NCBI RefSeq assembly: GCF_000384215.1
Contig: NZ_KB913032.1
Location: 7,091,605-7,155,604, forward strand
Reading direction: 5' to 3'
Length of the DNA stretch: 64,000 nt
DNA from: Amycolatopsis alba DSM 44262
Lineage (GTDB): Bacteria > Actinomycetota > Actinomycetes > Mycobacteriales > Pseudonocardiaceae
The position numbers and the translations under genes were made by a program. Positions 35,146 through 45,264 of this stretch are shown here, in pieces. Every line of letters begins with the position of its first letter. Positions within the stretch are counted from its first letter, which is position 1. The notes under the pieces were generated by a model, which was not told where the DNA came from, did not search any database, and worked only from the letters and a program-made list of their open reading frames with translations.

Positions 35146-36024
35146 TCAGTCTTGTCGGCGTGCCCGGTTCGCCAGTGCCAGCAGACGCGGCACCACCTGC
35201 GGGGCCGCTTCCAACGGCACGACGTGCCCGACACCGGGCAGCACGACGGAGGTCCCGTTCTCCACCGCGCCGGCCAGCTCCTCGACGTCCGCCGCGGGCA
35301 CGAGCTTGTCCCGCTCCCCCACGATCGCGGTCACCGGCACCGCGCCGACCTGCGACAACGCTGACTCCCGTGTGTAAGCGTCCAGTGCAGGACGGAACGC
35401 GGACACCGTCTGCGGCCAGTTGCCGCGGATCATCCGCACCGCCAGCTCGACGTCACCGGGCACCGGGTCGTCCCCGAAGAGCCACCACCGCAGCCCGGCG
35501 GTCACCGCCTTGCTCGTATGCTCCCGCACCAGGCCGATCAGCTTCGTCCCGAACACCATTTCCAGGTCCCGGCCGAGCTTCCCGAGCGCGTTCGGCCAGA
35601 TCGCGTCCGGGGTGACCCCGCCTGCGGACATGGCGAGCAGCCCGATTCCCGCCACCCTTGCCGCGAAGGCGTCCGGGTGACGCTGCGCGAGCGACAGGAT
35701 CGCGAGCCCGCCCATGTCGTGGCCGACCAGGACGATCTTGCCGTCCGGGATCACCTTCTCCAGCACCTCGGCCAGATCGTCGGCGAGCTGCCCCATGGTC
35801 GCCGACGCGGCCCGGACCTCGCCGGATTCACCGTGCCCGCGCTGGTCGTAGGCCAGCACCGCGAGCGGCTCCTCCGCGGCCTCGGCCAGTACCGGCCCGA
35901 TGGCGCGCCAGCTCCGCCTGTCGAGGGCGTAGCCGTGGAGGAGCACCACGGTCACCGGCGCCGACGAATCACCCCAGCGTTCGAAATGCAGGGGTGTCCC
36001 GTCGGCAGCCAGCAGACCGGGCAT
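35146..36024 (-). CDS. Alpha/beta hydrolase with Asp nucleophile
   Basis: A 292-residue alpha/beta hydrolase. 'VVLLHGYALDRRSW' forms the oxyanion loop. The nucleophile elbow 'LVGHDMGG' puts Asp103 where serine hydrolases have Ser, which points to epoxide-hydrolase or haloalkane-dehalogenase-type chemistry through an ester intermediate. 'IVGERDKLVPAADVEEL' gives the acid and 'PGVGHVVPLE' the His. The start at 36024 overlaps the stop of the upstream M20 peptidase by one base, so the two are coupled. Confidence 0.9.
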   Translation of the reverse strand: MPGLLAADGTPLHFERWGDSSAPVTVVLLHGYALDRRSWRAIGPVLAEAAEEPLAVLAYDQRGHGESGEVRAASATMGQLADDLAEVLEKVIPDGKIVLVGHDMGGLAILSLAQRHPDAFAARVAGIGLLAMSAGGVTPDAIWPNALGKLGRDLEMVFGTKLIGLVREHTSKAVTAGLRWWLFGDDPVPGDVELAVRMIRGNWPQTVSAFRPALDAYTRESALSQVGAVPVTAIVGERDKLVPAADVEELAGAVENGTSVVLPGVGHVVPLEAAPQVVPRLLALANRARRQD

Positions 36025-37346
36025 CAGGCCGAGCGCAGGAAGCGGTCGAGCACCCGCACGCCGAACTTCAGCGCGTCGACCGGGACACGCTCGTCGACCC
36101 CGTGGAACAGCGCCGAGAAGTCGAGGTCCGCGGGCAGCTGCAACGGGGCGAACCCGAAGTTGCGGATCCCGAGCGACTGGAACGACTTCGCGTCGGTGCC
36201 GCCGGAGAGCATGTACGGGAGCGTGCGGGCGCCAGGATCTTCGGCGAGGACCGCGTTGGTCATCGCGTCGACGAGGGCACCGTCGAAGGTCGTCTCGACC
36301 GGCGGCAGCTCCATCCACTCCTTCTCGATGTCCGGGCCGAGGATCTCCTCCAGCTCGGCGTTGAACGCCTCGAGACGGCCGGGAAGGATCCGGCAGTCGA
36401 CCGAAGCCTCCGCGACCGAGGGGATGACGTTCGACTTGTAGCCCGCGGTGAGCATCGTCGGGTTCGCCGTGTCGCGCAGGGTCGCGCCGATCATCCGCGA
36501 GATGTTGCCGAGCTTGGCGACGGAACCCTCGATGTCGTCCTCGGGGAAGTCCCAGCCGGTGATCTCGGTGACGCCGTCCAGGAACTCGCGGACGGAGTCG
36601 GTCATGACCAGCGGGAAGCGGTGGTTGCCGAGCCTCGCGACCGCCTCGGACAGCTTGGTGACGGCGTTGTCGCGGTGGATCATCGAGCCGTGGCCCGCGG
36701 TACCGCGCACGCGCAGCTTCATCCAGCGGATGCCCTTTTCGGCCGTCTCGATGAGATACGCGCGGACGTTGTCCTTCAGCGTGATCGAGAAGCCCCCGAC
36801 CTCGCTGATCGCCTCGGTGACTCCTTCGAACAGCTCGGGCCGGTTCTCCACCAGCCACTGCGCGCCGTACTTGCCGCCTGCCTCTTCGTCGGCGAGGAAC
36901 GCGAACACGAGGTCACGCGGCGGGACGATGTTGTTGATCTTGTAGTGGCGGGCCAGCGCGAGCGTCATGCCGAGCATGTCTTTCATGTCGACAGCACCGC
37001 GGCCCCAGACGTAGTCGTCCTGGATCGCGCCGGAGAACGGGTGCACCGACCACTCCGAGGCGTCGGCGGGGACGGCGTCGAGGTGACCGTGGATCAGGAG
37101 CGCGCCACGCGAAGGGTCGGCGCCCGGCAGCCGGACGATCACGTTGTGGCGGTTCTTGCCGCCGGACTCGACATAGGTGATCTCGTAGCCCGCGTCGGTG
37201 AGTTTCTCGGCGACGTACTCCGCCGCGGCGCGTTCACCCACCAGCGTGTCGGGGTCACCGGTGTTGGTGGTGTCGATGCGGATCAGTTCACTGGTGAGGG
37301 TGACTGCCTCTTCGGCGGCGGCTTCGATCAAATTCGGTTCGGTCAC
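36024..37346 (-). CDS. M20/M25/M40 family metallo-hydrolase
   Basis: A 440-residue two-zinc exopeptidase/amidase. The metal ligands lie in 'LLIHGHLDAVPADASEW' (His, Asp), 'VWGRGAVDMKDMLGM' (bridging Asp), 'AFLADEEAGGKYGAQWLVE' (Glu-Glu) and a C-terminal His in 'SGGTDAKSFQSLGI' and beyond. The dimerisation domain sits between. It resembles the ArgE/DapE/CPG2 group, but the substrate is not determined. It is coupled to the alpha/beta hydrolase that follows. The start 'MTEPNLIEAAAEEAVTLTSELIRIDTTN' matches the family. Confidence 0.93.
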   Translation of the reverse strand: MTEPNLIEAAAEEAVTLTSELIRIDTTNTGDPDTLVGERAAAEYVAEKLTDAGYEITYVESGGKNRHNVIVRLPGADPSRGALLIHGHLDAVPADASEWSVHPFSGAIQDDYVWGRGAVDMKDMLGMTLALARHYKINNIVPPRDLVFAFLADEEAGGKYGAQWLVENRPELFEGVTEAISEVGGFSITLKDNVRAYLIETAEKGIRWMKLRVRGTAGHGSMIHRDNAVTKLSEAVARLGNHRFPLVMTDSVREFLDGVTEITGWDFPEDDIEGSVAKLGNISRMIGATLRDTANPTMLTAGYKSNVIPSVAEASVDCRILPGRLEAFNAELEEILGPDIEKEWMELPPVETTFDGALVDAMTNAVLAEDPGARTLPYMLSGGTDAKSFQSLGIRNFGFAPLQLPADLDFSALFHGVDERVPVDALKFGVRVLDRFLRSA

Positions 37347-38727: not shown

Positions 38728-41607
38728 ATGACCGGTGTGACGCCCCAGACATCGGCGACGTCCCTGCCGCTGAGTTGGTGGGTGCACGGCCAGACCCCGC
38801 GCGAACGGAATGCGGACAAGCCCGTATGGGCCGACTTCGCCGAACACGCTGTCACGACGCTTCTGCCGGAGCGCCCTCCAGTCCGTGACTGGCGTGTCGA
38901 GTTCGCCGGGGTCTTCAGGTCGTTCGTCGCTGCCGCCTGCCAGGCGGCGGTCCCCGATGACCTCGCCGATGCCGACGTCGAGGCGCTCCGCCGGGGTTTC
39001 GCGGCTCAGCTCGACCAGCATCTGCTCAAACTCTCGGTCCGCACCCTGGTCCTCGAACTCCACCGCGCCCGCAAGGCCGGCACTCTCCAGGGTGAAACGC
39101 CCGAAGAGCGCTTCTCGGACTTCGTGCGCCGGCAATCCACTCCGGCCGGACTCGCCCGGTTGTTCGGCGAGTACCCGGTTCTGGCCCGGCTCCTCGCCCA
39201 GTCCTGTCTGCACGCCGCCGAAGCCAACGCCGAAATGCTGACCCGCTTCGCCGCCGACGCCGCCGCGCTTCCCGGCTCGGTCGTGGACGGCGAGCTCGGC
39301 ACGCTCGTCGAGGTGGCGGGCGGGATCGGCGACTCGCACGCGCGAGGACGGTCGGTCAAACTGCTCCGCTTCTCCAGCGGCGCCAAGGTGATCTACAAAC
39401 CCCGTCCGCTGATCCTGCACGAGCGCTTCACCGACGTCGTCGACCAGCTGAACAAGCGGCTCCCCGGCCTCGAACTGCGGACCGCCGACGCACTGCCGCG
39501 CGACGGGTACGGCTGGCTCCGGTTCGTCGAGTACCGACCCTGCGCCGATATCGCCGACGTCGACCGCTTTTACCGCCGCCAGGGCATCCTCCTGGCGCTC
39601 CTGCACGCGCTCGACGCCACCGACGTCCACTACGAGAACATCATCGCCTGCGGCGACCAGCCGGTGCTGATCGACATCGAGACGCTGTTCCAGCCGTCGC
39701 CGCCCGACCCGCCGGAGGGTGATCCCGCGGCGGCGATGCTGGCGAGATCGGTCCAGCGCACCCTGCTGCTCCCCCAGCTCTTCGCCGGGGAGCACGGCGC
39801 CGTCGACATCTCCGGGCTAGCCGGACGCGGTGGCAAGCTGCCAACCGACCGGGTCGATTGGGCCGATCCCGGCACCGACCACATGCGACTGGTCCGGGTG
39901 CCCGGCGAACTCGCGGGCGGGAACAACCTCCCCCGTCTCGACGGCCGCGACGTCACCCCCGCCGAGCACAGCGCGGCGCTGCTGGCCGGATTCCGGCTCG
40001 GCTACGACGCGATCTCCACCGCTCGGGACGAACTCGCCGAGCACCTCCGGCGCTGCGCCGAAGATCCCATCCGGGTGCTCATCCGGCCGACGAACTTCTA
40101 CTTCCGCCTGCTGGACGAGACCACCCATCCCGACCTCCTGCGCGACGCGGAGGACCGCGACCGCGCCTTCGACCTGCTCGAAGAGGACTCGGCAGGCGAG
40201 GAAAAACTGCTCAGGCTCGTGCCGCACGAACGGGCCGACCTGTGGACGGGCGACGTGCCGATGTTCACCTCGAACCCCGGCTCGACGTCGCTGCTGGATT
40301 CACGCGGCGACAGTGTCGAAGGCGTGGTCGACCGGCCGTCGCTGGACACCGTGCTGGCGAAGGTCGCCGACATGGATCCGCTCGACCAGCGCGACCAGGA
40401 ATGGCTGATCGCGGCCACCCTCGCCATCAGCACGGCGATCGACGGGCATCACGGAAGCGGCGAGACCGCGGAAACGGCCGTGCCGAACCAGGCACCCGAC
40501 GCGGAACGACTGCTGGTCACCGCCTGCGGGATCGCCGATCACATCGTCGCCAACGCCTTCTCCGACGAGCACCGCTCCAACTGGCTCGGCATCGAACTCG
40601 TCGACGACCGCTACTGGACCGTGCTGCCGATGGGCGCGGGGCTCGGTGAAGGCTACTGCGGTGTCGCGCTGTTCCTCGCCCAGCTCGCCGAGCTGACCGG
40701 GATCGCGCGCTACCGCGATCTGGCCGCCTACGCGATCAGCCCGCTCCCGAGCCTTTTCGCCACCCTCCGGGCCGACCCCGAACTGGCCGCCACCGCCGGT
40801 TGCGGCGGGCTTCTCGGGCTCGGTGGCGTCGCGTACACGATCGCCCGGCTCAGCACTCTGGTCGGTCTCCCCGCGGGTGATCTGATCGAACAGGCCGTCG
40901 ACCTGATGCCCGACGCCACGCACGGGACACCGTCCGGGTTCACCACGGGGCTGGCGGGCGGGGTCGCCTCGATGCGCTCGGTGTACGTCCAAACCGGACT
41001 GGAGTCGGCGCTGGCGAAGGCGGACCGATACGCCGGCCTGCTGCTCGACCGCGAGCGTCCACTGGGGACGGGTTTCGCGCGCGGTTCCGCCGGGATCGAC
41101 TGGGTCCTGCGGGCACACGCCCGGACCGGCGAAGAATCGCCCGGAAAGGCGGACGATCGGGCGGAAAGCACCGGCGGCTGGTGCGACGGTCTCGCGGGCG
41201 CCGCCCTCGGCCAGGCAGCCCAGCTGCCCGATCCCGCCCACTCCCTCCAGCTGGACCGGACGGTCAAACGACTGTCCGACGGGGCACCCATGAAGGATCT
41301 CAGCCTGTGTCACGGCGAGTCCGGAGTGCTGGAAGTGTTGTGCGTGCTGGCGGAGAACGGGCACACTGGCGCCGCCGCCGCGGCGCGTCGCCGGACCGGT
41401 CATCTGCTCGCCGCCATCGACCAGCGCGGCGCGCGCTGCGGTACTCCCGGCGCGATCCCCGCGCCGGGGTTGCTGACCGGTCTGGCGGGTATCGGCTACG
41501 GCCTGCTGCGGCTGGGATTCGGCGACCGGGTCCCGTCCGCACTCCTGCTCCGCCCCGATCGGCCGCATCCCGCGGCCACCGTCATTCCGCCGGTAAACCG
41601 AGTATGA
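38728..41607 (+). CDS. Class II lanthipeptide synthetase LanM, cyclase HG motif altered
   Basis: A 959-residue LanM. The N-terminal dehydratase (DUF4135) keeps its kinase-like active site: Lys224 in 'VIYKPRP', Asp299, His301 and Asn304 in 'DVHYENI', and Asp316 and Glu318 in 'LIDIETLF'. The C-terminal LanC-like domain keeps the zinc ligands Cys819 ('WCDG') and Cys861-His862 ('LCHGESG'). The preceding conserved HG motif, however, reads 'GFARGSAGI' with Arg785 in place of the catalytic His. ATG 38728 is chosen for its family-like N-terminus. The precursor gene follows after 14 bases and contains no Cys. I infer Ser/Thr dehydration without standard thioether formation. No transporter or protease gene is adjacent. 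Confidence 0.93.
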   Translation: MTGVTPQTSATSLPLSWWVHGQTPRERNADKPVWADFAEHAVTTLLPERPPVRDWRVEFAGVFRSFVAAACQAAVPDDLADADVEALRRGFAAQLDQHLLKLSVRTLVLELHRARKAGTLQGETPEERFSDFVRRQSTPAGLARLFGEYPVLARLLAQSCLHAAEANAEMLTRFAADAAALPGSVVDGELGTLVEVAGGIGDSHARGRSVKLLRFSSGAKVIYKPRPLILHERFTDVVDQLNKRLPGLELRTADALPRDGYGWLRFVEYRPCADIADVDRFYRRQGILLALLHALDATDVHYENIIACGDQPVLIDIETLFQPSPPDPPEGDPAAAMLARSVQRTLLLPQLFAGEHGAVDISGLAGRGGKLPTDRVDWADPGTDHMRLVRVPGELAGGNNLPRLDGRDVTPAEHSAALLAGFRLGYDAISTARDELAEHLRRCAEDPIRVLIRPTNFYFRLLDETTHPDLLRDAEDRDRAFDLLEEDSAGEEKLLRLVPHERADLWTGDVPMFTSNPGSTSLLDSRGDSVEGVVDRPSLDTVLAKVADMDPLDQRDQEWLIAATLAISTAIDGHHGSGETAETAVPNQAPDAERLLVTACGIADHIVANAFSDEHRSNWLGIELVDDRYWTVLPMGAGLGEGYCGVALFLAQLAELTGIARYRDLAAYAISPLPSLFATLRADPELAATAGCGGLLGLGGVAYTIARLSTLVGLPAGDLIEQAVDLMPDATHGTPSGFTTGLAGGVASMRSVYVQTGLESALAKADRYAGLLLDRERPLGTGFARGSAGIDWVLRAHARTGEESPGKADDRAESTGGWCDGLAGAALGQAAQLPDPAHSLQLDRTVKRLSDGAPMKDLSLCHGESGVLEVLCVLAENGHTGAAAAARRRTGHLLAAIDQRGARCGTPGAIPAPGLLTGLAGIGYGLLRLGFGDRVPSALLLRPDRPHPAATVIPPVNRV

Positions 41608-41621
41608 GGAGAAGAACCCGA

Positions 41622-41816
41622 ATGTACGAAAGAGACCTGTCCGCGACCGAAGACGCCCTCGGCGCCGTGAACCTGCCGCGCGCCCTCGAGGTCGGCTCGC
41701 GCAACCACGCGCTGGCGGGCAGCAAGCCGCGGCTGAGCGCCAACCCGCTCGCCACCCTGTCCAGCGACCCCGGATCGCCGTCCGTCGTCAGTGTCTTCAC
41801 CGGCGGCTGGATCTGA
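41622..41816 (+). CDS. Cysteine-free RiPP precursor peptide (LanM substrate candidate)
   Basis: A 64-residue peptide beginning MYERDLSATEDALG and ending SVVSVFTGGWI. GAGGAGAAG lies just upstream of ATG 41622, and the gene follows lanM by 14 bases. It has 12 Ser/Thr residues, eight of them in the last 26 positions (S39, T45, S47, S48, S52, S54, S57, T60), and no cysteine. The acidic/leucine-rich N-terminal half looks like a leader; no GG or GA double-glycine cleavage site is obvious before the Ser-rich part. A terminator at 41824 ends the lanM-precursor unit. The call rests on position, size and composition. Confidence 0.8.
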   Translation: MYERDLSATEDALGAVNLPRALEVGSRNHALAGSKPRLSANPLATLSSDPGSPSVVSVFTGGWI

Positions 41817-41823
41817 GACGGGC

Positions 41824-41856
41824 CACGAAGGCGGGCACGCGCCGCCCGCCTTCGTG
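41824..41856 (+). terminator. Terminator of the lanM-precursor unit
   Basis: CACGAAGGCGGGC (41824-41836) pairs perfectly with GCCCGCCTTCGTG (41844-41856) around a 7-base loop, eight bases after the precursor stop codon. It separates the RiPP unit from the LuxR gene. Confidence 0.85.
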
Positions 41857-41905: not shown

Positions 41906-44794
41906 GTGGGAATCCGTTCGTCGCGGGTGATCGGCCGTGACGCCGAACTGACCGAGCTTTCCGGAGCTCTCGATCGCGCCATCGCCGGCCGCGGCGGCGC
42001 GATCTTTCTCGTGGGTGAAGGCGGCATCGGCAAGTCCCGGCTCGCCATCGAAGCCGCTTCGCGAGCGGTCACCGCGGACATCCCGGTCCTGCAGGGCAGG
42101 GCCGGTTCGATCGGCCCGCTCGTCCCGTTCCGGCCACTGACCCAGGCATTGTGGTCACACTTCCGTGGCGGTGGCCCGCCCGAGGCGGCCGAACTCGACC
42201 CGTTCGTCCCCGTCCTCGCCCAGCTCGTCCCCGACTGGAGCCAAGGCGACCGGCCTCGGGAATCCGGTTCCCTGCTCGTGCTCGCCGAAGCGGTGTTCCG
42301 GCTGCTGGCCGTCACGAGCCGCGGACGCGGCGCGCTGCTGGTCCTCGACGACCTCCAAGACGCCGACGCCGAGACGCTGTTCATCCTCGAATACCTCGTC
42401 GACAACCTGGCGGCGGCGCAGACCCTGTTCGTCGGCACCCTTCGCAACGAGCCCTCGGACGCCCTCCGCCTGGCGACCACCGGTGCCCAGCGGATGAGCT
42501 GCACCGTCCTCGAACTCGACAGGCTCGGTCTCGCCGACACCCGCGCCCTCGCCGCGGCCTGTCTGGAGACCGAGCCGGGACGCCTGCCCGCACCGGCGGC
42601 GGAACTGTTGTGGCGCAACAGCGCCGGGCTGCCGTTCATCGTCGAGGAGCTCCTCCACGGCATGGTGAACGACGGTCTGCTGGTGGAGGGCAGGGACGGC
42701 TGGCGCGTCATCGGAGAGCTTCGCGCCCGTGTACCCGCCGCGCTGATCACCAGTATCGGCGTCCGGATGGAGCAACTCGGCGAGCAGGCGGGCGAACTGC
42801 TGTCGGTCGCCGCGATCATCGGACGGCGCTTCCCGCTGCCGGTGGTGCAGAGGGTCACCGGGACGAACGACCGGACCTTGCACAACCACCTCAGCGCCGC
42901 GGTCTCGGCGAACCTGGTGACCACCGACGAGACGACACCCGGCTGGTACGCCTTCCGCCATCCGCTGACCGCCGAAGCGCTGCTCGCGCGTCAGTCACCG
43001 GCGCGGAAGGCGGCGCTCGCCCGGCAGGCCGCCGACGCCGTCGAGAAGCTGTACCCAGGGCTGCCCGGTGATCTGTGCGCCCTCGCCGCTTCGCTCCGCC
43101 TGACCGCGCTGGACGAGCGGGCGGCGGGCCACCTTTTCGCCGAAACCGGTCGCCGCGCGCTCGACGCCGGTGCCGCGGACTCCGCGGTCACGATGCTCAC
43201 CAAGGCCGTCGACCTGCTCGCCGGGGCCGACGCGGGTGACCGGGCCGAAGTGCTGGAGACGCTGCTGTACGCGCTCGGGCAGACCGGCCAGTTCGACCGC
43301 GCCGTCGAGCTTTCCGACGGATTCGGCGAGATCGGGACGCTGGAACGGGCCGCGAAACTGCACACCCAGCTGGCCTGGGCCGCCTACATCGCCGGACGGC
43401 ACGACGAATGCCTCGGCCAGATCGAACGGGCCCGCGCTCCCCTCGGCTCGGCGATCTCACCTGCCCAGCAAGCGGCGCTCGACGCCGTCGAGGCGAATCT
43501 CTGGCTTGACGTCCCCGGCCGGACCGGCACCGCGGAACGGCTCGCGCGGCAGGCGTGGAAGGTGGCCGAGGAGACCCGGCAGCCGTTCGTCGTCTGCCAG
43601 GCGCTCCAGGTGCTCGGCATGCTCGCGCTGCCGAGGGATCTCACCGAGTCCGAGCACTACATGCAGCTCGCGCGGCGGACCGCCGAGGACAACCACCTGC
43701 ACCACCTCCGCACCCAGGCGCTGGTCCGGCTCGGCGGGCATCGCGTGCTGATGAACGGCGACGAGCAGACCCTGCTGCTCGCCCGCGACGACGCCCAGCG
43801 GACCGGGTCGATCACGCTGCACTGCGCGGTCGATTCCGTGCGCACCATGCACGCGATCCTGCGCTGCGAGTTCGACACCGCGCACGCGCTGCTGGAGGAG
43901 AACCTCGCCGTGCTCGGCAGGCTCCGGTTGACCGCGTTGCTGCAGTACGCGCATATGACCAGGGCGATGTCGGCCGGGCACCGGGCGGACCGTCCGGCGA
44001 TGGAACAGGCACTCGCGGACTTCCGGGAAAGCGGCGGTGAGAACGCGCAGGAGATGGTGCTGAGCATCGGGCTGGCGCAGGTCTTTTGTTCACTGCTCGA
44101 AGAGGACTTCGAGCGGGCGCGCCGCGAGCTCGACCAGGTGACCGAGCTCGAGGACCGGCGACCGAGCCGATTCCACCTCGCCGGCCAGCACGGACTGAGG
44201 ACGCTCGTCGACACGCTCGGCGGTGCCGACTGCCCCGAGGCCGGTTCCGCCATGAGCGAGATGCGATGGAACCGGCAGTTCGTCGAGTTCGCGCACGCCG
44301 TCGAGCACGGCAGGCGAGGCGAGGCGGTGGAAGCCGGGCAAGCCGTGACAGCCGCGCTGGAGACGTCGGCGCCTTATCCGCTGGCCCGCTATCTCGGGCT
44401 CCGGCTGATCGCCGAACCGGCCGCCGCCGACGGCTGGGGCGATCCGGCGGGTTGGCTCAAGGAAGCCGAAGAGTACTTCCACGGCAGGGGCATCCAGGCT
44501 GTCGCGGCCGCTTGCCGGAGCCTGCTCCGCAAGCTCGGCGCGCCCGTCCGCCAGCGCCGCGCCGGGGTCGACCGCGTCCCCGGCGACCTGCGCGCGGCAG
44601 GCGTCACCGTGCGCGAGTACGAGGTGCTGGTGCTGCTCGCCGAGCGAATGGGCAACAAAGACATCGGGGCCCGGCTGCACATCTCCCCCAGGACGGTCGA
44701 GAAGCACGTCGCGAGCTTGCTCGCCAAGACCGGCCTCGCCGACCGCTCGGCCCTCGCCGAACGAGCGGCCGGACCGCGACCTGGCATGCTGTGA
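41906..44794 (+). CDS. LAL-type LuxR family regulator with AAA ATPase domain
   Basis: A 962-residue large ATP-binding LuxR regulator. It starts 'MGIRSSRVIGRDAELTELSGALDRA'. Walker A is 'GEGGIGKSR' near residues 37-45 and Walker B 'ALLVLDDLQDADAETLF' near 147. A TPR-like helical middle section follows, then the C-terminal LuxR HTH 'GVTVREYEVLVLLAERMGNKDIGARLHISPRTVEKHVASLLAKTG'. GTG 41906 lies eight bases after a TATAGT -10 box (41893-41898), so the mRNA is probably leaderless. LAL proteins often activate secondary-metabolite loci; the position just after the lanM unit suggests it controls that unit. Confidence 0.92.
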   Translation: MGIRSSRVIGRDAELTELSGALDRAIAGRGGAIFLVGEGGIGKSRLAIEAASRAVTADIPVLQGRAGSIGPLVPFRPLTQALWSHFRGGGPPEAAELDPFVPVLAQLVPDWSQGDRPRESGSLLVLAEAVFRLLAVTSRGRGALLVLDDLQDADAETLFILEYLVDNLAAAQTLFVGTLRNEPSDALRLATTGAQRMSCTVLELDRLGLADTRALAAACLETEPGRLPAPAAELLWRNSAGLPFIVEELLHGMVNDGLLVEGRDGWRVIGELRARVPAALITSIGVRMEQLGEQAGELLSVAAIIGRRFPLPVVQRVTGTNDRTLHNHLSAAVSANLVTTDETTPGWYAFRHPLTAEALLARQSPARKAALARQAADAVEKLYPGLPGDLCALAASLRLTALDERAAGHLFAETGRRALDAGAADSAVTMLTKAVDLLAGADAGDRAEVLETLLYALGQTGQFDRAVELSDGFGEIGTLERAAKLHTQLAWAAYIAGRHDECLGQIERARAPLGSAISPAQQAALDAVEANLWLDVPGRTGTAERLARQAWKVAEETRQPFVVCQALQVLGMLALPRDLTESEHYMQLARRTAEDNHLHHLRTQALVRLGGHRVLMNGDEQTLLLARDDAQRTGSITLHCAVDSVRTMHAILRCEFDTAHALLEENLAVLGRLRLTALLQYAHMTRAMSAGHRADRPAMEQALADFRESGGENAQEMVLSIGLAQVFCSLLEEDFERARRELDQVTELEDRRPSRFHLAGQHGLRTLVDTLGGADCPEAGSAMSEMRWNRQFVEFAHAVEHGRRGEAVEAGQAVTAALETSAPYPLARYLGLRLIAEPAAADGWGDPAGWLKEAEEYFHGRGIQAVAAACRSLLRKLGAPVRQRRAGVDRVPGDLRAAGVTVREYEVLVLLAERMGNKDIGARLHISPRTVEKHVASLLAKTGLADRSALAERAAGPRPGML

Positions 44795-44797
44795 TCC

Positions 44798-45037
44798 ATG
44801 AACGACCTCACCGTGTACGGCGCCGTCTGGTGCCCCGACGTCAAACGCAGCCGTGCCTTGCTGGACGCGAAGGGCGTCGAGTACGACTACGTCGATGTCG
44901 AAGCGGACACCGGCGCTGAAGAGATCGTGCGAGCGCTGCAGAACGGTGAGCGGCGGATCCCGACCATCGTCTGGCCGGACGGCACCCACCTGGTCGAACC
45001 GAGCGACGACGAGCTCACCGCGCATCTGAACCGATGA
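44798..45037 (+). CDS. Glutaredoxin-like (mycoredoxin-type) protein, monothiol
   Basis: A 79-residue thioredoxin-fold protein, 'LTVYGAVWCPDVKRSRALLDAKGVEYDYVDV', with the cis-Pro segment 'RRIPTIVWPDG'. The active site reads C12-P-D-V, so only the first cysteine of the usual CxxC remains; it could act by a monothiol mechanism. It starts three bases after the LuxR stop and overlaps the next gene as ATGA, so it lies in the same transcription unit. No other cysteine is present in the protein. Confidence 0.88.
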   Translation: MNDLTVYGAVWCPDVKRSRALLDAKGVEYDYVDVEADTGAEEIVRALQNGERRIPTIVWPDGTHLVEPSDDELTAHLNR

Positions 45038-45264
45038 CCCTCCCGGACGTCCCGGTCGGCACGAGGGTCGTCGTGCGGTACCGGATCGAGGGCGGGTTCA
45101 CCGACGCGCTCGGCTACCTGCGCTCCCGTGACGACGCGGAATGCACGGTGGAGACCAAACGCGGTCTCGCCACGATCCGGCTGGCAGACATCGTCCTGGC
45201 GAAGACCGTCCCACCACCACCGGCCCCACGCGGGTCCCGTAAGGACACGTTCGGAAGTCCGTGA
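45034..45264 (+). CDS. Small SH3-like domain protein (resembles N-terminus of Rv0428c-type GNAT proteins)
   Basis: A 76-residue protein, 'DVPVGTRVVVRYRIEGGFTDALGYLRSRDDAECTVETKRGLATIRLADIVLAKTVPPPP'. This resembles the short N-terminal beta-barrel domain that precedes the acetyltransferase domain in Rv0428c-like GNAT proteins. Here it is free-standing: the frame stops shortly after the Pro-rich linker, just inside the start of a 28-bp hairpin at 45255. It may be a true stand-alone domain or the remnant of a truncated acetyltransferase gene. ATG 45034 overlaps the glutaredoxin stop. Confidence 0.65.
   Translation: MTLPDVPVGTRVVVRYRIEGGFTDALGYLRSRDDAECTVETKRGLATIRLADIVLAKTVPPPPAPRGSRKDTFGSP

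Follow-up and report, generated by a model that had tools for sequence, protein, structure and literature searches.

The window analysed here, a stretch of 64,000 nucleotides from Amycolatopsis alba DSM 44262 (contig NZ_KB913032.1, positions 7,091,605 to 7,155,604; genome of 9.8 Mb on a single contig), contains the gene of a LanM-type class II lanthipeptide synthetase, followed by the genes of a 64-residue peptide and of a LAL-type regulator. We give an even chance to the reading of this locus as a three-gene module of LanM, mostly cysteine-free substrate peptide and dedicated LAL regulator, in which the LanM carries out dehydration only and would yield a linear dehydroamino-acid peptide that is tied to the LAL.

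The window LanM scores 683 bits against TIGR03897 lanti_2_LanM (cut-off 304) and is matched by Pfam DUF4135 and LANC_like. An AlphaFold2 model (mean pLDDT 77.3, 14-row alignment), used for fold matches only and not for the geometry of the zinc site, finds LicM2 (6st5) and CylM (5dzt) as top matches, with LanCL and GCR2 proteins lower down. The catalytic residues of the dehydratase (K224, D299, H301, N304, D316, E318) and the Cys-Cys-His zinc ligands of the LanC half (C819, C861, H862) are all present. In CylM, replacement of D347, H349, N352 or D364, which belong to the same motif as the LanM dehydratase residues, is described as abolishing or nearly abolishing dehydration (PMC4550811). What is missing is the pair of side chains that handle the enolate: R785 aligns with the enolate-protonating His of the His-Gly (HG) motif, FSHG in LicM2, and Asp820 is found where an enolate-stabilising His, Tyr, Lys or Asn follows the first zinc Cys. 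PMC9934072 assigns thiol activation to zinc, enolate protonation to His219 of LanCL1 (His212 in NisC, His835 in CylM) and enolate stabilisation to His277 of LanCL1 (Tyr285 in NisC, Lys876 in CylM; His, Lys or Asn in LanMs), and reports impaired mutants of the His219 equivalent for NisC, SpaC, LctM, ProcM and the LanCLs. An earlier note on this DNA, made from the letters, had listed the dehydratase and zinc residues and the Arg at 785, and we find each of them at the number it gave; the second catalytic position, D820, and the LAL regulator (41906–44794) are new here.

Relatives were collected from the genus (80 genomes, 53 with a LanM match at E <= 0.001), the family (297 genomes, 107 at E <= 1e-100), the class (394 genomes, 5 at E <= 1e-100, the genome of the window included) and named genome contigs (30 loci); the sets overlap, and part of the listed matches was taken for analysis. 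Deduplication left 145 distinct LanM loci, and a LAL adjoins the LanM in 135 of them. It lies downstream on the same strand in 129 of the 135, its match starting 255–782 bases after the LanM, while it is 1.5–1.7 kb away in two (loci L160, L161) and on the opposite strand in four (L076, L077, L078, L159). The LAL is seen only in part in 50 of the 135 loci, mostly at the ends of the fetched stretches; 85 matches span at least 850 columns. In a FastTree phylogeny from which columns 785 and 820 had been removed, the 135 LAL-linked LanMs and two without a LAL match (L162, L165) are set apart from all other LanMs by a branch of 100% local support. This clade is spread over Amycolatopsis and its kin, Micromonospora and some Streptomyces.

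Within the clade, the two halves of the enzyme differ in what is kept. D299, H301, N304, D316 and E318 occur in all 135 LAL-linked LanMs, and position 224 is Lys in 113, Arg in 21 and Gln in one. Position 785 carries Arg in 59, His in 26, Asp in 22, Trp in 13, Phe in 5, Thr in 3, Glu and Asn in 2 each, and Val, Gly and Ala in one each. At position 820, His is found twice, and Tyr, Lys or Asn in none. His785 is combined with an accepted residue at 820 in a single LanM (L152, His at both); 25 of the 26 members with His785 lack the 820 residue, so that the clade as a whole has departed from textbook LanC chemistry. Gly786 is invariant, and all three zinc ligands are kept in 132 of 135 LanMs, the exceptions being L129 and L141 (one lost in each) and L104, where they are replaced by T, G and R. 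The precursor next to L104 has a core TSVSAP without Cys and a leader with one Cys.

Two sets of proteins, both without genomic context, served for comparison: the best 120 of 1108 homologues of the window LanM and, as canonical control, the best 120 of 1380 homologues of the canonical Amycolatopsis LanM L079. They replace an earlier phylum-wide TIGR03897 control that yielded 3 of 296 genomes. Among the window homologues, His785 is present in 23, His, Tyr, Lys or Asn at 820 in 3 and both in none; the corresponding numbers in the canonical control are 118, 116 and 115. The zinc ligands are complete in 120 of 120 proteins of either set. Position 864 is Glu in 133 of the 135 LAL-linked LanMs and in 120 of 120 window homologues, whereas every one of the 120 canonical controls has Asp there. 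The surroundings of Glu864 have what we take to be a resemblance to a cytidine-deaminase motif, and we considered a newly gained, cytidine-deaminase-like catalytic base near the zinc. This candidate is weakened by the Asp in all controls, which makes the difference a fixed Asp-to-Glu change and not the gain of an acid.

The cyclase half is under purifying selection and is not decaying. In the close group of 19 loci that includes the window, the mean pairwise ratio of nonsynonymous to synonymous substitution rates (dN/dS) is 0.17 for the cyclase half, 0.13 for the dehydratase half and 0.22 for the peptide.

The peptide gene begins 14 bases past the LanM stop, and the LAL gene follows 89 bases past the peptide gene. 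As the earlier note had described, the product has 64 residues, among them 9 Ser and 3 Thr but no Cys; lanthipeptide precursors are expected to have both Ser/Thr and Cys in the core. Since the length of 64 is kept in all 19 loci of the close group, the dN/dS is about 0.22 and the leader recurs beside relatives in other genera, we consider the gene to be real on sequence grounds. A precursor profile has matches at 128 LAL-linked loci out of 135 (at 132 out of 139 with duplicates still included), a count to be read with the fact that its 132 seeds were drawn from the same loci; further members were recognised by eye at L084, L087, L076, L078 and at L162, which has no LAL match. The part common to the family is the leader with G-x-R-x-x-A-L-A-G. 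No Cys is found in the last 45 residues of any precursor at 92 of the 128 loci, and at least one precursor contains Cys at the other 36; counted over the last 30 residues, the numbers become 94 and 34.

The cores fall into recognisable types. [ST][STV]V[ST] occurs in 67 of 93 distinct Cys-free cores, with 5.1 expected after per-core shuffling, and [ST][ST]CC in 22 of 30 distinct Cys-bearing cores, with 0.06 expected; as the cores are related by descent, these ratios are descriptive. The serines of S-V-V-S (54 and 57) do not vary in the 19 close-group loci, while positions 34, 48 and 60 do. Tandem precursors, two or three Cys-free genes with different cores behind one LanM, are seen at ten Amycolatopsis loci of a 57%-identical group (L024, L027–L033, L064, L082); none of these precursors has a Cys among its last 45 residues. 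Other cores include SSFCCGWLC beside a LanM with Gly785 (L113) and single or spaced Cys (PICPIC, PVC) beside LanMs with Asp785 (L126–L128).

The regulator of the window has an N-terminal AAA ATPase (AAA_16), a C-terminal LuxR helix-turn-helix domain (GerE) and 962 residues, compared with about 900 or more in LALs. The next LALs of its own genome are 25–32% identical to it, and the LALs linked to LanMs of under 55% identity are 41–56% identical. A LAL match at E <= 1e-20 is present in 48 of 120 family genomes, and the identities split into values of at least 39% and of at most 36%, with one 82-residue fragment apart. Of seven upper-group LALs taken from outside the set of LanM loci, one (L216) has a divergent LanM and a peptide of TCC type as its neighbours. 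LanM and LAL are common to 13 of 13 locus groups in an all-against-all comparison of frames of at least 90 amino acids from 21 loci, and nothing besides LanM, peptide and LAL is shared by all groups or almost all of them. Other frame clusters present in at least 10 groups are read, from their position, as frames inside or opposite the LanM and LAL genes. Two clusters common to 5 of 13 groups are short-chain dehydrogenases and nonribosomal peptide synthetase modules in scattered places (10 frames scanned). None of the gene families common to at least 5 of the 13 groups encodes an exporter or protease. A Peptidase_C39 domain of the LanT type has no match in the whole genome of the window, while the identical search is positive in 8 of 14 control genomes. 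Some known class II lanthipeptide clusters also lack LanT.

The earlier note took the lost His and the lost Cys as two oddities pointing the same way, and a causal pairing is not borne out. Cys-free precursor sets accompany 76 LanMs without and 16 with His785, and Cys-bearing sets 31 and 5 (128 loci). On the tree, at least nine His/non-His changes and six Cys changes are required, and no association appears over six phylogenetically independent pairs, which are too few to reach significance. Given the absence of correlation in both the counts and the pairs, the idea that His loss follows Cys loss was dropped; the two traits belong to one clade, in which His loss extends to members with a TTCC core. 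The earlier note also named orthologues with His785 and a Cys-containing peptide as evidence that would speak against it: the close orthologues L012 and L015 and the 57%-identical group do have His785, and their peptides are Cys-free as well. Arg785 is mostly found with TTVSAP or SVVS cores, Trp785 with STVVS or TTVSAP and Asp785 mostly with TTCC, pairings that we take as lineage marks.

The observed gene order, residues, peptide family and selection can be joined in a proposed pathway. The conserved G-x-R-x-x-A-L-A-G part of the leader would recruit the peptide to the LanM. The kinase-like half would then phosphorylate and eliminate C-terminal Ser/Thr residues, with S54 and S57 of S-V-V-S as the foremost ones in the window; these are the probable targets because the dehydratase residues are intact and the Ser/Thr are conserved. 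The product would be a linear peptide with dehydroalanine and dehydrobutyrine. Linearity is most likely because the peptide has no Cys and both enolate-handling side chains, 785 and 820, are gone, so that an intramolecular lanthionine could not form. A possible reason for the retained zinc ligands is that dehydration requires the folded LanC half as a scaffold, or that this half still serves a residual thiol function; most mutations in the cyclase domain of the class III enzyme ThurKC are reported to impair dehydration, a precedent for a scaffold role (PMC10604976). The peptide would be made under control of the LAL and would probably feed back on it. A regulatory and perhaps intracellular role is plausible in view of the constant linkage to one LAL subfamily and the lack of LanT.

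Several observations weigh against a dehydration-only enzyme coupled to a LAL. The cyclase half has diverged widely: of the sites conserved in the canonical control, 31 of 83 in the cyclase half versus 23 of 125 elsewhere in the protein are retained in no more than half of the clade members, so that 785 and 820 are not the only changes. The role known for the zinc is not a structural one, and its near-invariance suggests chemistry. By analogy, the loss of H785 alone need not mean inactivity, as ThurKC makes rings with Asp at this place. In the minor Cys branch, mostly non-His785, some ring closure may proceed without His. Neither the genome search for Peptidase_C39 nor the families shared by at least 5 of 13 groups revealed a leader protease or exporter that would explain maturation. 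Finally, no LanM match lies near the other six of the seven upper-group LALs (L214, L215, L217–L220; 10–15 kb each): LanMs of the clade almost always carry a LAL of this subfamily as neighbour, and not vice versa.

The near-invariant zinc site would find its use if the LanM dehydrated and the LanC zinc activated an outside thiol, be it mycothiol, another small thiol or the Cys of a partner protein, for addition to dehydroalanine or dehydrobutyrine. Mycothiol is made by Actinomycetes. We regard this route, the main rival, as unlikely. The zinc ligands are complete in all but three of the LAL-linked LanMs, the LanM profile matches LanCL1 (E 3e-5) and LanCL2 (E 4e-8) by sequence, the model matches them by fold, and LanCL1 is described as adding glutathione to dehydrobutyrine (PMC9934072). 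However, a LanCL-type thiol transferase would be expected to have His219 and His277 of LanCL1, both replaced here, and His277Asp, the very residue found in the window, lowers the kcat/Km of LanCL1 from 3.2e4 to 3.7e2 (PMC9934072). Nor did a binding site for a thiol come to light. Of the products that the earlier note had considered, the linear dehydroamino-acid peptide and the external-thiol adduct are the two leading readings, and a ring formed with a non-Cys nucleophile has gained no specific support.

An extension of the linear-product reading, in which the electrophilic dehydropeptide is not exported and serves as a ligand, possibly covalent, of the co-encoded LAL, is unlikely in our estimate. 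The LAL could instead be a mere pathway activator of an ordinary peptide that acts outside the cell, with exporter and protease encoded elsewhere. LuxR-type activators are common in secondary metabolism, and a membrane-helix-like stretch (18-residue Kyte-Doolittle mean of at least 1.6) is found in a precursor at 81 of 132 loci. The window peptide, by contrast, has no such stretch (0.68), and the missing C39 peptidase and shared exporter or protease also make this quite improbable. Still less support is left for a residual cyclase, in which zinc alone would close rings, on a Cys partner peptide in trans in the organism of the window or on the enzyme's own TTCC core in the Micromonospora/Actinokineospora branch. 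Such TTCC cores do exist in the clade, Asp785 accompanies 18 of the 36 Cys-bearing precursor sets, and ThurKC has Asp at the equivalent position (PMC10604976). Yet the precursors of the ten tandem loci of Amycolatopsis are free of Cys over their last 45 residues, and a second member of the precursor family could not be found in the genome of the window (next best E 0.65 with the peptide as query and 0.38 with a 28-row family alignment); a Cys precursor with matching leader elsewhere in the genome is what the earlier note had said would overturn its reading. That the cyclase half or the entire LanM is a non-functional, decaying remnant, as two lost catalytic positions and the zinc-less L104 could suggest, is highly improbable and was set aside in view of the purifying selection on both LanM halves and the peptide, the near-invariant zinc site and the invariant Gly786.

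Compared with CylM and LicM2, the window LanM has the same two-domain architecture, dehydratase residues, zinc ligands and overall fold, whereas its clade differs in the replaced 785 His and 820 His/Tyr/Lys/Asn, in Glu864 for Asp, in the LAL neighbour and in mostly Cys-free substrates. The eukaryotic proteins LanCL1 and LanCL2, which add glutathione to dehydroalanine or dehydrobutyrine, share the LanC fold and zinc site and are the precedent for an intermolecular thiol (PMC9934072), but they retain both catalytic His, of which the window LanM has neither. ThurKC has likewise lost the HG His (Asp667, with Arg610 nearby) and is described as a metal-independent cyclase (PMC10604976); it is zinc-free and has different dehydration domains, while the LanMs of the clade retain the zinc ligands. 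To be added to the LanCL comparison is that these proteins, to our knowledge, lack a dehydratase half. Cys-free precursors associated with LanMs have been noted in LanM+LanKC clusters and among cyanotins, where they are not counted as lanthipeptide precursors (PMC7268733), and Cys-free substrates are known for the prochlorosin synthetase, as are companion peptides lacking Cys in clusters that have type II and III cyclases (PMC11251773). LAL linkage and loss of catalytic residues are not mentioned in the available portions of these two papers, and no description of a LAL-linked clade or of the double residue loss was found by title or abstract among the open-licence papers searched. Unlike in LanM+LanKC clusters, a single further LanC-type gene was found in the genome of the window, at a distance of about 110 kb.

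The clade represents a natural experiment on LanC residues, with a nearly fixed zinc site, variable positions 785 and 820, and substrates of which some have Cys and others lack it. The clade also supplies numerous enzymes whose probable products are linear dehydropeptides, a class of product overlooked by lanthipeptide mining that requires Cys (PMC7268733). The tie of these peptides to one kind of transcriptional regulator makes their function testable. If the intracellular switch were true, lanthipeptide machinery would have been recast as a signalling module throughout the taxa in which the clade occurs.

Table 1. Features of the LanM locus in the window (positions in window coordinates).
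Feature	Position	Strand	Evidence
LanM-type class II synthetase, 959 aa; intact kinase-like dehydratase half; LanC-like half with R785, D820, E864 and zinc ligands C819/C861/H862	38728..41607	+	TIGR03897, Pfam, alignment, AlphaFold2 fold matches
Arg785 codon (CGC) at HG-motif His position (His219 LanCL1, His212 NisC, His835 CylM)	41080..41082	+	Sequence; role of His from PMC9934072
Codons of Cys819 (zinc ligand) and Asp820; 820 is the enolate-stabilising position (His277 LanCL1, Tyr285 NisC, Lys876 CylM)	41182..41187	+	Sequence; PMC9934072
Codons of Cys861 and His862 (zinc ligands), Gly863, Glu864	41308..41319	+	Sequence, clade and control alignments
Precursor of 64 aa with 12 Ser/Thr and without Cys; G-x-R-x-x-A-L-A-G in the leader, S-V-V-S in the C-terminal part	41622..41816	+	Family profile, selection
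Perfect inverted repeat, 13 bp, between precursor and LAL genes; terminator- or attenuator-like	41824..41856	.	Repeat search
LAL-type regulator, 962 aa, AAA_16 and LuxR/GerE	41906..44794	+	Pfam domains; each of 135 distinct clade LanMs has one as neighbour

The inverted repeat exceeds the longest arm (8 bp) obtained among 50 shuffles of the precursor-LAL gap of the window, and arms of 7–14 bp are present in the nine close-group loci tried, the window included. A family scan of 18 window frames around the locus revealed an M20 peptidase at 36024–37346, which is present in 3 of 11 close-group loci with long flanks, about 2–7 kb upstream of the LanM. The earlier note had stated that neither LanT nor protease is present; this holds for LanT, and for the protease it is qualified by this inconstant M20 gene. 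Directly behind the LAL, a 79-residue glutaredoxin-like protein whose C-P-D-V site has a single Cys is encoded at 44798–45037, followed by a small Rv0428c-SH3-like protein at 45034–45264. The pair is found in 11 of 11 long-flank close-group loci (L034–L044) and in none of the other groups compared, and with this confinement to the close group the glutaredoxin-like gene was set aside as a sign of a thiol pathway. Cysteines of the LAL were likewise considered as thiol partner. Among the 85 alignable LanM-linked LALs (of 135), 82 keep C391, 84 keep C564, 81 keep C728 and all keep C870; most of these cysteines are also present in five aligned family LALs with no nearby LanM match, and C870 in two general LALs of the window's genome, so that they are not specific to the LanM link. 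In Micromonospora (L048, L051, L052), extra LanM-like frames directly upstream of the LAL-linked LanM suggest tandem copies. The second LanC-bearing gene in the genome of the window (L001, C1:7017835-7021845) combines a kinase-like and a LanC domain, has the HG His and C-N-G and C-H-G zinc motifs, and appears class IV-like by eye.

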